This document shows, one piece after another, positions 6,316 through 34,644 of a stretch of DNA of 37,301 nucleotides. The position numbers and the translations under genes are program-made. Every line of letters starts with the position of its first letter. Within the stretch, counting starts at the first letter, position 1. The notes beneath the pieces were generated by a model, which saw only the letters and a list, made by a program, of their open reading frames with translations, had not been told where the DNA came from and ran no database searches. Location: positions 1-37,301 of the forward strand of contig CALGPN010000017.1 in the NCBI GenBank assembly GCA_937960435.1, read 5' to 3'. This DNA is from an uncultured Desulfosoma sp. (GTDB taxonomy: Bacteria; Desulfobacterota; Syntrophobacteria; Syntrophobacterales; DSM-9756).

Positions 6316-7061
6316 CGTACACACTCCTCGTATCCCATTTGGCTGATACATTCCAAAATGCCGCGGGGATTGTCCGAACAGCTGAGCACCCCGTCGAAAA
6401 GAACTTGGCCTTTGTCCGCGTTGACATATTCCAAGATGTGGCCCGTGTGGGTGATGATGAGGCCCATCTTGGTCCGTTCCCGTTTGACCTGCAGCATGGA
6501 CTTGATATCCGTGGGGGTGCATTCCTTTTGAAGAAGCCGGGCGATGGTCTGCCCCACCAGGGCGATGTTCTCGATATCCACGCCCGATTCGGGTTCGTCG
6601 AAAAGCATAAGATCGGGGTCCTGGGCCATAAGCTGGAGCAATTCGGAGCGCTTGATTTCGCCTCCCGAAAATCCGACGTTTACGTCCCGATCCAAAAAGT
6701 CCTGGAAATTCACCCTGCGTGCCAGTTCCGTAACCTCCACGTCCCGGTCACGGGCACAGATTTTGACCATTTGATGCGTCTTCACCCCATGGATCGTCGG
6801 CGGCCTTTGATACGCCATGCCGATGCCCAACTCGGCCCGTTCATTGATGGGAAGATGCGTGATGTCCACACCCTTGAAGATGATTTTTCCCCCCGTGACC
6901 TTGTATTGGGGGTAGCCCATAATGGTCATGAGCAAGGAAGTTTTTCCGGACCCGTTGGGCCCGAAAAGGATGTGTGTCTCACCCGGCTTGATTTCCAGGT
7001 CGATGTGTTTGAGAAGCTTTTTTCCGGCCAATTCCACTTCCAAATCTTCAATGAGCAGCAT
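6294..7061 (-). CDS. sufC: Fe-S cluster assembly ATPase SufC
   Basis: A 255-residue ABC-type ATPase. Walker A GPNGSGKT (34-41), Q-loop region [10 protein letters not shown] (83-92), signature FSGGE (131-135), Walker [13 protein letters not shown] (151-162) and the switch His in ITHTGHIL are all intact. MAYQRPP and DEPESGVD are typical SufC variants. It powers cluster assembly on SufB. The start at 7061 is chosen because AAGGAG lies seven bases upstream; in-frame upstream Met codons (up to 7139) have no ribosome site. The C-terminus ends [13 protein letters not shown] with a CxxC pair, an extra that many SufC proteins lack. It is the first gene of the sufCB operon; no sufS, sufE or sufU is beside it. 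Confidence 0.95.
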
Positions 7062-7616: not shown

Positions 7617-8414
7617 GTGAAGTCCGAGTTACTCTATGAGCAGCCCTCAATGCTGATCGCTCTCGCCCTGCTGGCGCTTATGGTGATCGGGGCTGAGCTG
7701 GGATACAGGCTCGGCCGCAGGGGACGCCGGACACACAATGAACTGACGCATGTACAGATCACAAGCATACAAGCCGCTACCCTGGGTTTGCTCGCCCTCC
7801 TTCTTGGGTTTACTTTCGCCTTGGCGCTGTCCCGGTTCGAGTATCGAAAGCAGATGGTGGTTCAAGAATCTAACGCGATCGGTACCGCCGCCCTCCGTTC
7901 CGAGTTCCTACCAGTGTCTCATGATGATGAGGTGGACAGGTTGTTTCGCCGCTACGTCGAGATTCGGTTGGAGTCTGTTCTTCGAACCGGGCAGGGATCA
8001 TCAGAACGAGAGGGATTGGATCGCGAAGCGCGGCAAATCCAGCGTCGGTTATGGCACATTGCAAATGAAGCCGCAGAGGCGGATCCCCGATCGATCCCAT
8101 TAGGTTTGTTCACCCATGCAATGAACGAGCTCATCGACATCAAAACGAAGCGGGATATCGCTGTGGCCAATCATGTGCCGGAGAGCGCCTTGTTGCTCCT
8201 GCTGGGTTTCGCGGTGTTGGCCGCCGTCGTCCTCGGGTATGGGAATGGCCTCGCAGGCCGTCGCATTCCGGGTCTGACAGTGGCCTACTGTGTCGTTGTC
8301 GTCTTGGTCGTTGCACTCATCATGGACCTGGATCATCCCCAGCAAGGACTCGCTCGGGCGAGTCAGCAAAGCATGATCCAATTGCAGGAGATTATGGACG
8401 CCAAAGGACGATGA
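7617..8414 (+). CDS. DUF4239 (bestrophin-like) membrane protein
   Basis: A 265-residue protein with four predicted membrane segments in two hairpins: about 11-29 and 53-71, then 189-209 and 217-236. Between them is a soluble helical region rich in charged residues. The arrangement and the motif LGLLALLLGFTFALALSRFEYRKQMVVQESNAIGTA match DUF4239, distantly likened to bestrophin anion channels. The start is GTG with AAGGAG upstream. Function is not established; ion conductance is only a family-level guess. It is monocistronic or co-transcribed with the repeat protein 162 bases downstream. Confidence 0.85.
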   Translation: MKSELLYEQPSMLIALALLALMVIGAELGYRLGRRGRRTHNELTHVQITSIQAATLGLLALLLGFTFALALSRFEYRKQMVVQESNAIGTAALRSEFLPVSHDDEVDRLFRRYVEIRLESVLRTGQGSSEREGLDREARQIQRRLWHIANEAAEADPRSIPLGLFTHAMNELIDIKTKRDIAVANHVPESALLLLLGFAVLAAVVLGYGNGLAGRRIPGLTVAYCVVVVLVVALIMDLDHPQQGLARASQQSMIQLQEIMDAKGR

Positions 8415-32756: not shown

Positions 32757-33554
32757 TCAGACTTCCCGTTTGCGCCGTTCCTTTCGGGCGGCGCGCTTCC
32801 AGCTGCTTTCCTTTTTCCCTTTGGAATCCGAAGGTTTCCTCTTGGGCTTCGGCTCCCCTTCGAAAGACCAATCCGGAAAAAGCCCTTTCATGTGCCGAGG
32901 CTCCATGGCAAAGGATCCCAACATGGCGTCGGGTTTTCCCCGTAGAGCCTTTTCGGGGGATCGAGCCGGCTTTTCGGATACTTTCTCGGCCTCATCGTCA
33001 GGGGCCTTCCATGGAAACACCAAATGGACGGCATCCACGGCCTTGGTGAGATAAAGACTCTCTCCCCCTTTGAAAAATCGAACTCCGGCGGCGTGGGCCT
33101 CTCGAGCGCGGATTTCCAACACCACAAAATCCGACCCCCGCCGGCGCGCCATGCGTTCCGCCGTGGTTTTGTCCGTCCACAGAGGGACGTAAGAGCGATG
33201 AAGGGCCCGAAGCCCTTCCGTGCGAACCGCGGGAAGCTGCCGTCGGCGGATCCCGGCGAAAAGAAGCGCCGGGGGCGGCGTGACTTCTTCGTAGAGGGTT
33301 CCGGGAGGCCTTTCCAAGAGCCGCAGGCGCGAGCCTTCCAGTGCAAAGGGGAGGGCATAGCCCAAAAGAGACAATTCCTTCAGGGTCGATTCCCGAACGA
33401 AACGCAGCCGCGGATCGTCCTGCAATGCCCAATAAAATTCCTTCCACGGCATCGTGCCGTCTTCATCCCAAAACAGGCCGTAGTCCCCGGGCAAGGTGCA
33501 GGCCATGGTCGTCAGCGTCTTGACCAAGGTCTTCGGCGGTATGGGCCCGCTCAT
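32757..33554 (-). CDS. Divergent KptA/Tpt1-like protein (RNA 2'-phosphotransferase fold)
   Basis: A 265-residue protein. Residues 10-80 resemble the KptA N-terminal winged-helix lobe (GLFWDEDGTMPWKEFYWALQ), and residues 94-180 resemble the ADP-ribosyltransferase lobe: LLFAGIRRRQLPAVRTEGL, RARRRGSDFVVLEIRARE-like, GVRFFKGGESLYLTKAV. However the family's catalytic Arg and His in LRH are Cys19 and Thr20, and the His of LYHGT is Ala100; the two later arginines appear kept (Arg105, Arg138 or 139). The 80-residue C-terminal tail is basic (KxKRK, KRAARKERRKRE), likely nucleic-acid-binding. GGGAGGG precedes the start, which overlaps the upstream deacetylase-fold gene by four bases. NAD-dependent 2'-phosphate removal is doubtful here. 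Confidence 0.7.
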   Translation of the reverse strand: MSGPIPPKTLVKTLTTMACTLPGDYGLFWDEDGTMPWKEFYWALQDDPRLRFVRESTLKELSLLGYALPFALEGSRLRLLERPPGTLYEEVTPPPALLFAGIRRRQLPAVRTEGLRALHRSYVPLWTDKTTAERMARRRGSDFVVLEIRAREAHAAGVRFFKGGESLYLTKAVDAVHLVFPWKAPDDEAEKVSEKPARSPEKALRGKPDAMLGSFAMEPRHMKGLFPDWSFEGEPKPKRKPSDSKGKKESSWKRAARKERRKREV

Positions 33555-34465
33555 GAACGCCCTCCCAAGATGGCGATAATAGGCGGAATGCAGTCGCGGG
33601 CGATGTCGCTTCGGGATCCACCGCCCAAAACCACTTCCAACCGGCCGTTGCAGACGGTTTCCGCCAGGTCTTTCATCATGTGCGCAAGGAGCAGATAGGC
33701 CTGACGGGTGAGGCCGAGGTCGCCGTAGTCGCCTCGATGCGTGTCGAAACCGAAGTACCAGAAAATCAGCTCCGGCGCAAAGCGCACACACCGATCGTAA
33801 AACGCCCGGCGCGCCGTTTCGTAATAACGCCGGTCCACATCCCGAGCCGATTCCGGCGCCTCGAGGCGTCGCCCCCAGGAAAAGGCGCGCCACGGGGAAG
33901 CCTCGAACGGGACCGGAACATCCACCTTGGTGCCGTCGGGGGACTCGTAGGCGCTGGTGCACAGGCACACATGCAAAACATCCGGATCGTCCCGTACGAG
34001 ATCCCGCGTGCCGTCCCCGTGGTGAGCGTCCGTGTCCAGGACGGCGAAACGCCGAACCCCGTGGCGTTCTCGAAGAACCGTCATGGCTAGGACCACATCG
34101 TTAAAACAACAGTAACCCCCGAAAAAATCCCGTCCGCTGTGATGGCCTCCGGCGCCGATGAAGGCGAAGGCGTTGCGGATCTCCCCCAGAACGATTTTTT
34201 CGGCCCCCAGGACGACGCCGCCGGCGGAATGCCACGCGGTGGAACACAACGGGTCGGCGTAGACACCTTCCAAGAGTTCGGGGGTGTGCACCTTGAGAAC
34301 CCAGATTTCGTCGATGGGGGGAGACTCGAAGAGCACGAAGCGGGGATCTTTGAGTAAAGGTTCGAGGATCTGGGGGAAGTCCTGGAGGCGGGAGCCTTGG
34401 GTGAGGTAACTGCGGCGGCTGAAACTGGGGTGATAGACGATGCCCGTGGTGATACCCTTGGTCAT
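33551..34465 (-). CDS. Histone deacetylase-fold (AcuC/HdaH-like) family protein
   Basis: A 304-residue arginase-deacetylase-fold protein. Seen: GAGGHHSGRDFFGGYCCFND with the His108-His109 charge-relay pair, DTDAHHGDGT with zinc ligands Asp146 and His148, and the third ligand Asp241 in FGFDTHRGDYG. The C-terminal glycine loop reads LGGGSRSDIAR; the usual catalytic tyrosine of GGGGYxxxxxAR is absent. Family members hydrolyse acyl-lysine, acetyl-polyamine or other amide/ester acyl groups. The start has AAAGGGG upstream and a plausible promoter (34490-34518). It is coupled by an ATGA to the KptA-like gene. Substrate and activity are open. Confidence 0.88.
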   Translation of the reverse strand: MTKGITTGIVYHPSFSRRSYLTQGSRLQDFPQILEPLLKDPRFVLFESPPIDEIWVLKVHTPELLEGVYADPLCSTAWHSAGGVVLGAEKIVLGEIRNAFAFIGAGGHHSGRDFFGGYCCFNDVVLAMTVLRERHGVRRFAVLDTDAHHGDGTRDLVRDDPDVLHVCLCTSAYESPDGTKVDVPVPFEASPWRAFSWGRRLEAPESARDVDRRYYETARRAFYDRCVRFAPELIFWYFGFDTHRGDYGDLGLTRQAYLLLAHMMKDLAETVCNGRLEVVLGGGSRSDIARDCIPPIIAILGGRS

Positions 34466-34489
34466 GAGGCGCCCCTTTATTTAATTTAC

Positions 34490-34518
34490 ATAATATATAT
34501 TATCGGACGTTAAGCCAA
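34490..34518 (-). promoter_or_regulatory. Candidate promoter of the deacetylase-fold operon with AT palindrome
   Basis: Read on the minus strand, TTGGCT (34518-34513) and TATTAT (34495-34490) are 17 bases apart; the -10 box matches five of six positions. It lies within an AT-rich patch that includes the perfect 14-base palindrome ATAATATATATTAT (34490-34503), conspicuous in this GC-rich DNA. The distance to the gene start is 24 bases, so the leader is very short. Confidence 0.5.
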
Positions 34519-34569: not shown

Positions 34570-34644
34570 GCGGGAATAACTCAGCGGTAGAGTGCGACCT
34601 TGCCAAGGTCGAAGTCGCGGGTTCGAATCCCGTTTCCCGCTCCA
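34570..34644 (+). tRNA. tRNA-Gly (anticodon GCC)
   Basis: Seventy-five bases fold into a complete cloverleaf. The acceptor GCGGGAA (34570-34576) pairs with TTCCCGC (34634-34640), followed by discriminator T and a genome-encoded CCA. The anticodon stem CGACC/GGTCG encloses the loop TTGCCAA with anticodon GCC, and the T-arm carries GGTTCGAATCC. It decodes glycine GGC/GGU. Confidence 0.97.

Follow-up and report, generated by a model that had tools for sequence, protein, structure and literature searches.

A Tyr-less HDAC-fold protein and a degenerate Tpt1/KptA-like protein encoded by an inherited gene pair in Syntrophobacteria

On the minus strand of the window, by which we mean the whole stretch of 37,301 nucleotides analysed here, two overlapping genes encode a protein with a histone deacetylase (HDAC) fold, termed H, and a KptA/Tpt1-like protein, termed K. 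The locus raises the question of whether the two genes belong together and, if so, on what their products act. A sequence-only reading had proposed a possible new module acting on acylated or ADP-ribosylated RNA or nucleotides. Among the titles and beginnings of abstracts listed in a literature search, none describes an H–K pair or a GGGS deacylase.

The locus and its signals

The features of the locus are as follows.
33551 to 34465, minus strand (ATG 34465, stop 33551): H, HDAC-fold protein of a Tyr-less (GGGS) family, 304 aa (Pfam Hist_deacetyl, PF00850, E 2.4e-39)
32757 to 33554, minus strand (ATG 33554, stop 32757): K, KptA/Tpt1-like protein with a degenerate active site, 265 aa (Pfam PTS_2-RNA, PF01885, 28.1 bits)
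33551 to 33554, minus strand: ATGA stop-start overlap of H and K, from the ORF positions
34490 to 34518, minus strand: sigma-70-like promoter site upstream of H (TTGGCT, 17 nucleotides, TATTAT; 9 of 12 matches)
34570 to 34644, plus strand: tRNA-Gly(GCC), divergent from H and directly upstream of it (tRNA gene call)

The shared ATGA had already been noted from the sequence and is confirmed. The promoter that had been ascribed to the pair coincides with the sole sigma-70-like site in the 2.3 kb scanned; as shuffled sequences give 0.4 such sites (sd 0.7), it is plausible and statistically not significant. The sequence-only reading made no mention of the tRNA-Gly(GCC) gene, which is also present in 13 of the 20 other loci of families f1 to f4 (scanned around K or H); beyond it, upstream of H, lies a DHH-family gene. 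At the other end a convergent ORF, which we read as the final gene of a cluster for a liv-type ABC transporter, reaches to 32756, its stop abutting that of K.

Both genes are under purifying selection in four of the six genome pairs tried, with dN/dS values of 0.05–0.19 for H and 0.12–0.27 for K; synonymous sites were saturated in the remaining two pairs, for which no value could be computed. Pseudogene decay of H or K is made unlikely by these values. Two other candidate explanations were rejected: an anti-phage defence system, as no PADLOC-DB family matched at E 0.01, and a phage origin, as 50,697 phage records gave no K match.

Distribution and inheritance of the pair

Beyond the phylum, plasmids were searched for H, phages for K, and named genomes were scanned with K. 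The named-genome scan recovers close relatives only, namely six Syntrophobacteraceae, one Syntrophobacterales, two Desulfarculales, four Deltaproteobacteria and Desulfoferrobacter suflitae. In three of these 14 loci H is the gene immediately upstream of K, and identities between the window and these relatives are 36–43% for the 14 K and 53–69% for the three H. Plasmids yielded 146 records with relatives of H, each below 60% identity; the best 10 of the 146 show 26–33%, three of them annotated as histone deacetylase and seven unannotated.

Of the 55 genomes of the window's class, 54 have K, among them all 35 of high quality. The H profile matches 39 of the 55 (E 1e-30), seven of them at only about 107–120 bits, and these seven were taken as other HDACs and left out. 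Both genes then occur in 31 genomes, K alone in 23 and H alone in one, with the cut, partial or split H genes of G005, G028, G034 and G038 counted as present. Where both occur, H is adjacent to K (upstream, same strand) in 17 genomes, within 1 kb in two and unlinked in 12, the last comprising four genomes of f2 and eight of f5. In the two near cases an EVE-domain gene stands between H and K (by Pfam in G035, by tblastn at 74% in G034), which brings the 17 to 19. Adjacency spans four families (7/8 genomes in f1, 2/26 in f2, 5/5 in f3 and 3/3 in f4) and is therefore not peculiar to the genome of the window.

In a sample of 297 genomes of the phylum, K occurs in at least 101, H in at least 41 and both in at least 28; the scan scored up to nine K and seven H candidates per genome, and some matches may be missed. 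No K was found in 13 of the 41 H genomes. Outside the class, linkage of H and K was seen in 0 of the 18 sampled genomes with both, of which 17 carry them on different contigs of drafts and one 450 kb apart; many genomes are drafts, and contig breaks hide some links. K accompanies 18 of the 31 H genomes outside the class versus 71 of the 254 genomes lacking H (Fisher p 0.0016; 1.6e-6 with the class included; kinship ignored in both). Since such raw p values ignore kinship, we set co-occurrence aside as proof of a module.

Since 23 of the 54 K genomes of the class lack H, and H occurs without K in the phylum, a strict two-part module is unlikely: adjacency is conserved, joint presence and absence is not. 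Of the module that had been proposed, an inherited pair of the class thus survives and a strict unit does not; the two genes are repeatedly neighbours in the class and were not seen as such in the 18 sampled genomes outside it that have both.

To follow the inheritance of the pair, we inferred a tree from 65 K proteins, with two Tpt1 proteins as references, by a quick method that left several forks weak. The f1 to f4 rows form one clade of 41 (SH-aLRT 91), whose two deepest branches (f4 and f3) are adjacent throughout, and the adjacency state needs five changes among the class rows. In the H tree the K-adjacent rows are not one clade (five changes), a pattern compatible with inheritance followed by losses, or with relocation of H; long branches meet in this tree and it carries little weight.

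The main rival explanation is inherited synteny without function, according to which H landed between tRNA-Gly and K in an ancestor, rearrangement was slow and the proteins work apart. Besides H, K recurrently has tRNA-Gly, DHH and liv-type genes nearby; conserved gene order around K thus extends beyond H, and plain synteny may account for some of the adjacency. The occurrence of either gene without the other and the lack of linkage in the 18 genomes outside the class agree with this. However, part of f3 (L105–L107) keeps the pair intact and tight while the genes on both flanks differ. Six of the 17 adjacent pairs, the window's included, have a possible start of K at −4 relative to the stop of H; they belong to f1, f2 and f3, and the finding of this overlap in both f1 and f3 likewise speaks against plain synteny. 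Furthermore, K and H are strongly diverged, yet they stand together (EVE cases included) in 19 of the 23 f1 to f4 genomes with both. The pair of f4 (L097, L098) likewise has other genes directly next to it; DHH and tRNA-Gly lie at a distance of a few genes. We therefore regard synteny without function as somewhat unlikely. The evidence supports H and K as a real, inherited gene pair or two-gene operon of the window's class, presumably read as one transcript.

Catalytic residues lost and kept in H and K

H resembles the classical zinc deacylases (HDAC/AcuC/ApaH/HdaH, PF00850) in its arginase-deacetylase fold, zinc ligands and His-His pair. It differs from them in having GGGS for XGGY and another first loop, and no NCBIfam model matched H at E 1. 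The AF2 model of H (from four sequences, pLDDT 76.5) matches the HDAC 5ji5 in Foldseek with E 1.1e-16 and TM 0.74. Its active-site loops are partly below pLDDT 50 (105–116, 242–247), so the match speaks for the fold and not for the shape of the pocket. The place of the catalytic Tyr was located by alignment to HDAC6.
33614 to 33616, minus strand: codon of Ser284 of H, at the place of the HDAC catalytic Tyr (LEGGY versus LGGGS)

Residues were counted in 52 H rows of at least 200 bits, which include G035 twice (L035, L055), the contig-cut L039 and half of a split gene (L075); four rows below 200 bits were dropped and L154–L167 are not included. The Asp-His-Asp zinc site, the His-His pair and the relay Asp are kept in all 46 rows of at least 300 bits, and all 46 have Ser for the catalytic Tyr. 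In the six more distant rows this place is Ser in three and Ala in three, so that Tyr is found in 0 of 52. The lack of Tyr, which the sequence-only reading had pointed out in H, is thus borne out, and the other three HDAC-fold loci of the window's genome all read EGGY. The first loop of H carries a conserved SRRSYLT-like motif, with Arg17 in 45 of 46 rows (one gap), that was not seen in the other HDACs of the window's genome. Arg285 was considered as a general substitute for Tyr and rejected, as this position varies within the family (R, H, S, E, L or M), whereas Ser284 is fixed.

Three variants of H deserve mention. L131 (G282:C141, 4408–5250) belongs to a genome with two H-like genes and is the more diverged of them; with Leu and Asn at the places of the zinc ligands His148 and Asp241, it looks catalytically dead. 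In L146 (G038:C272:2154-3018) H is split and matched in two parts that lie in different frames, apparently through a frameshift or an assembly error, and most sampled members of its genus have no H match. The Tyr-less H of L117–L123 (f33/f92) is mostly GGGSH, with His instead of Arg after Ser, and the sampled genomes have no K match.

A survey of bacterial classical deacylases observed, in its treatment of the catalytic place, only Tyr, and class IIa HDACs, which have His there, are described in the same source as low in activity and poor deacetylases (PMC11532494). H is like the class IIa enzymes in that the catalytic Tyr is replaced, and unlike them in that the replacement is Ser, not His. 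H could hence be a pseudoenzyme or scaffold, or a protein or polyamine deacylase of low activity in the manner of class IIa HDACs, with K as its regulator; the loss of Tyr favours this view. However, all 46 rows retain the zinc ligands and the His-His pair, H is under purifying selection in the computable pairs, none of these rows has the His of class IIa, and the conserved first loop sets H apart from the other HDACs of the genome. On balance we consider such a role of H unlikely.

KptA removes the 2′-phosphate from tRNA, at U47 in archaea (PMC9095486), and the role of Tpt1/KptA in bacteria is described as not obvious in the passage of PMC6333775 that touches on it. According to the same source, Arg18, His19, Arg68 and Arg121 are essential in Clostridium thermocellum Tpt1, HGT 101–103 contacts and holds NAD+, and the N lobe is a winged helix with La as its best structural match (PMC6333775). 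K shares with Tpt1/KptA the two lobes (winged-helix N lobe and ART lobe) and the Arg121 equivalent, and differs in the remaining tetrad residues, the HGT motif and an extra basic tail.
33291 to 33554, minus strand: N-terminal RNA lobe of K (winged helix), residues 1–88, the most conserved part of K
33009 to 33290, minus strand: degenerate ART (NAD) lobe of K, residues 89–182, with AGI for HGT and Arg120 kept
32760 to 33008, minus strand: linker and basic tail of K, residues 183–265, with conserved GSF and WK..(R)K motifs and low model confidence

The PF01885 score of K is above the gathering cut-off of 26, and any match over this cut-off is found in 27 of 55 class genomes; K is far below the cut-offs of the NCBIfam KptA equivalog models (best 58.6 versus 239 bits). 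The AF2 model (pLDDT 80.7) has block values of at least 93 over nearly all of residues 11–180 (83 in 81–90) and of 45–60 in the tail. Tpt1 6ede is its first Foldseek match (E 7.6e-15, 25% identity) and confirms the two-lobe fold. The TM scores of 0.38 (query) and 0.54 (target) and the rmsd of 10.9 over both lobes suggest that the modelled lobes are set differently from 6ede, or are poorly superposed.

At the places of Arg18, His19, Arg68 and Arg121, the K of the window has C, T, P and R, keeping one of four, with Arg120 as the equivalent of Arg121. Among 65 non-identical homologues (45 from the class, 20 from outside; K genes of the 54 class genomes beyond these 45 were unfetched as loci or identical), neither the complete tetrad nor HGT occurs in any of the 45 class sequences. 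In the same sequences the Arg121 equivalent is invariant, Arg68 is replaced by Pro in 40 and Arg139 is kept in 39. The tetrad is complete in five of the 20 outside relatives, all five with a tail like that of K, indicating that the active site was lost within the K family. These five (L080, L083, L086, L090, L096) make up a tailed KptA subfamily of the Desulfobacterota that shares with K the C-terminal extension and the N-lobe Lys-Glu and Arg, and that, unlike K, keeps R-H-R-R and HGT or HAT. Its neighbours include a DSHCT-type RNA helicase (L086), YihA/YsxC (L083) and DUF1844 (L096). A canonical KptA is encoded elsewhere in two of the 55 class genomes (L168, L169; RH/GHS/HGT motifs, about 180 aa, tail-less); both genomes also carry K, which is therefore a separate family.

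With three of the four tetrad residues and HGT lost, neither the formation of ADP-ribose phosphates nor the ADP-ribosylation of RNA ends is to be expected of K. Judged by its residues, K is a former tRNA 2′-phosphotransferase without NAD chemistry. The sequence-only reading was thus right that K lacks the active-site His residues, and the ADP-ribose chemistry that it had attributed to K finds no support. Its suggestion that K performs ADP-ribose chemistry and H acyl removal on RNA or nucleotides bearing acyl or ADP-ribose groups has the right folds, the invariant Arg121 and the largely kept Arg139 in its favour, and is made very improbable by the lack of a complete tetrad and of HGT in every class sequence; what survives of it is that H may work near RNA. 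It is equally improbable that K, as an ART, has rebuilt its active site for a new NAD-dependent activity. The invariant Arg and the purifying selection on the ART lobe (dN/dS 0.17–0.26 in four pairs) would suit this, but the first residue at the HGT place varies (F in 19, Y in 11, H in 8 and A in 4 of the 45 sequences) and no new motif is fixed.

Selection on K is strongest in its N lobe, with dN/dS of 0.05–0.15 and values below those of the ART lobe in all four computable pairs. Mean column identity in the 45 class sequences is 0.63 for the N lobe and 0.51 for both the ART lobe and the tail. The tail has 24 Lys and Arg versus 15 Asp and Glu; the N lobe of the window's K is non-basic (10 versus 11). 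That K is present throughout the class and under selection although its chemistry is lost points to an RNA-binding role.

Transfer RNA genes stand beside K despite otherwise different surroundings, tRNA-Gly in the class and tRNA-Met or tRNA-Lys elsewhere: K of L078 (7407–8174) adjoins tRNA-Met (8190–8266) and K of L091 (6871–7644) adjoins tRNA-Lys (6700–6773). A tRNA gene within about 200 bases of K is found in two of the 20 outside loci.

Genomic context of H and a possible role in RNA or translation

The context of H without K was surveyed at 41 loci, covering 30 of the 31 H genomes outside the class (the partial H of G151 was left out), the second G282 locus, eight f5 genomes and two unlinked f2 genomes; the partial H of G005 was also left out. 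In f5, contigs end upstream of H in G004 and G012, and in all six readable genomes pcnB lies upstream of H on the same strand, with 9–343 bases between match ends; tRNA-Asp is in the fetched stretch in five of these six. The pcnB query is a polynucleotide adenylyltransferase by its best NCBIfam match, at 299.9 bits versus a cut-off of 305.65. All eight f12 genomes have H with at least one of gltX, fmt, prfA and prmC on the same strand, and fmt is upstream of H in one of three f56 genomes; the fmt query scores 175.7 versus an NCBIfam cut-off of 201.5. None of the tested RNA or translation genes was near H in f33/f92 (0/7), f62 (0/1), the unlinked f2 genomes (0/2) or the distant relatives (0/12 loci). 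As a control, ten neighbours of the canonical HDAC paralogues of the window's genome were scanned, a part of all their neighbours, and rlmN was directly beside one of the three. Such neighbours are thus not rare for HDACs, which weakens the argument from context: an RNA or translation context of H is present in several lineages and is too unspecific for proof.

The H–K pair probably acts on RNA or translation, and not through ADP-ribose chemistry. More specifically, we tentatively propose that K is a Tpt1-derived RNA-binding protein and H a Tyr-less hydrolase tied to tRNA or translation, joined in an inherited operon, an explanation that we hold to be quite possible, if short of probable. K would have been kept as an RNA-binding protein through its conserved winged-helix RNA lobe and basic tail. 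With its zinc site and a His-His general base, H is expected to remain capable of hydrolysing an acyl bond; lacking the Tyr that stabilises the oxyanion, it would be better suited to labile bonds such as esters than to the amides of acetyl-lysine. Class IIa HDACs prefer activated amides, and a preference of H for labile esters would suit by analogy with them. H may work in tRNA or RNA 3′-end or translation metabolism. In the four families K would be its co-transcribed RNA-binding partner, possibly in physical contact with H and sharing an RNA substrate, and elsewhere H would stand in line with other RNA or translation genes.

A bolder version of this proposal, which we think distinctly doubtful, makes H the founder of a group of Tyr-less, HDAC-fold, tRNA-linked ester hydrolases (acting, for example, on acyl- or formyl-aminoacyl-tRNA), with K as a dead Tpt1 that presents the tRNA. 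If it were true, the H family would be the first HDAC-fold enzymes acting on RNA-borne acyl groups. A family with a conserved Ser, set against a survey that, where it treats the catalytic place, observed only Tyr (PMC11532494), opens a testable gap: what does a Tyr-less HDAC fold hydrolyse?
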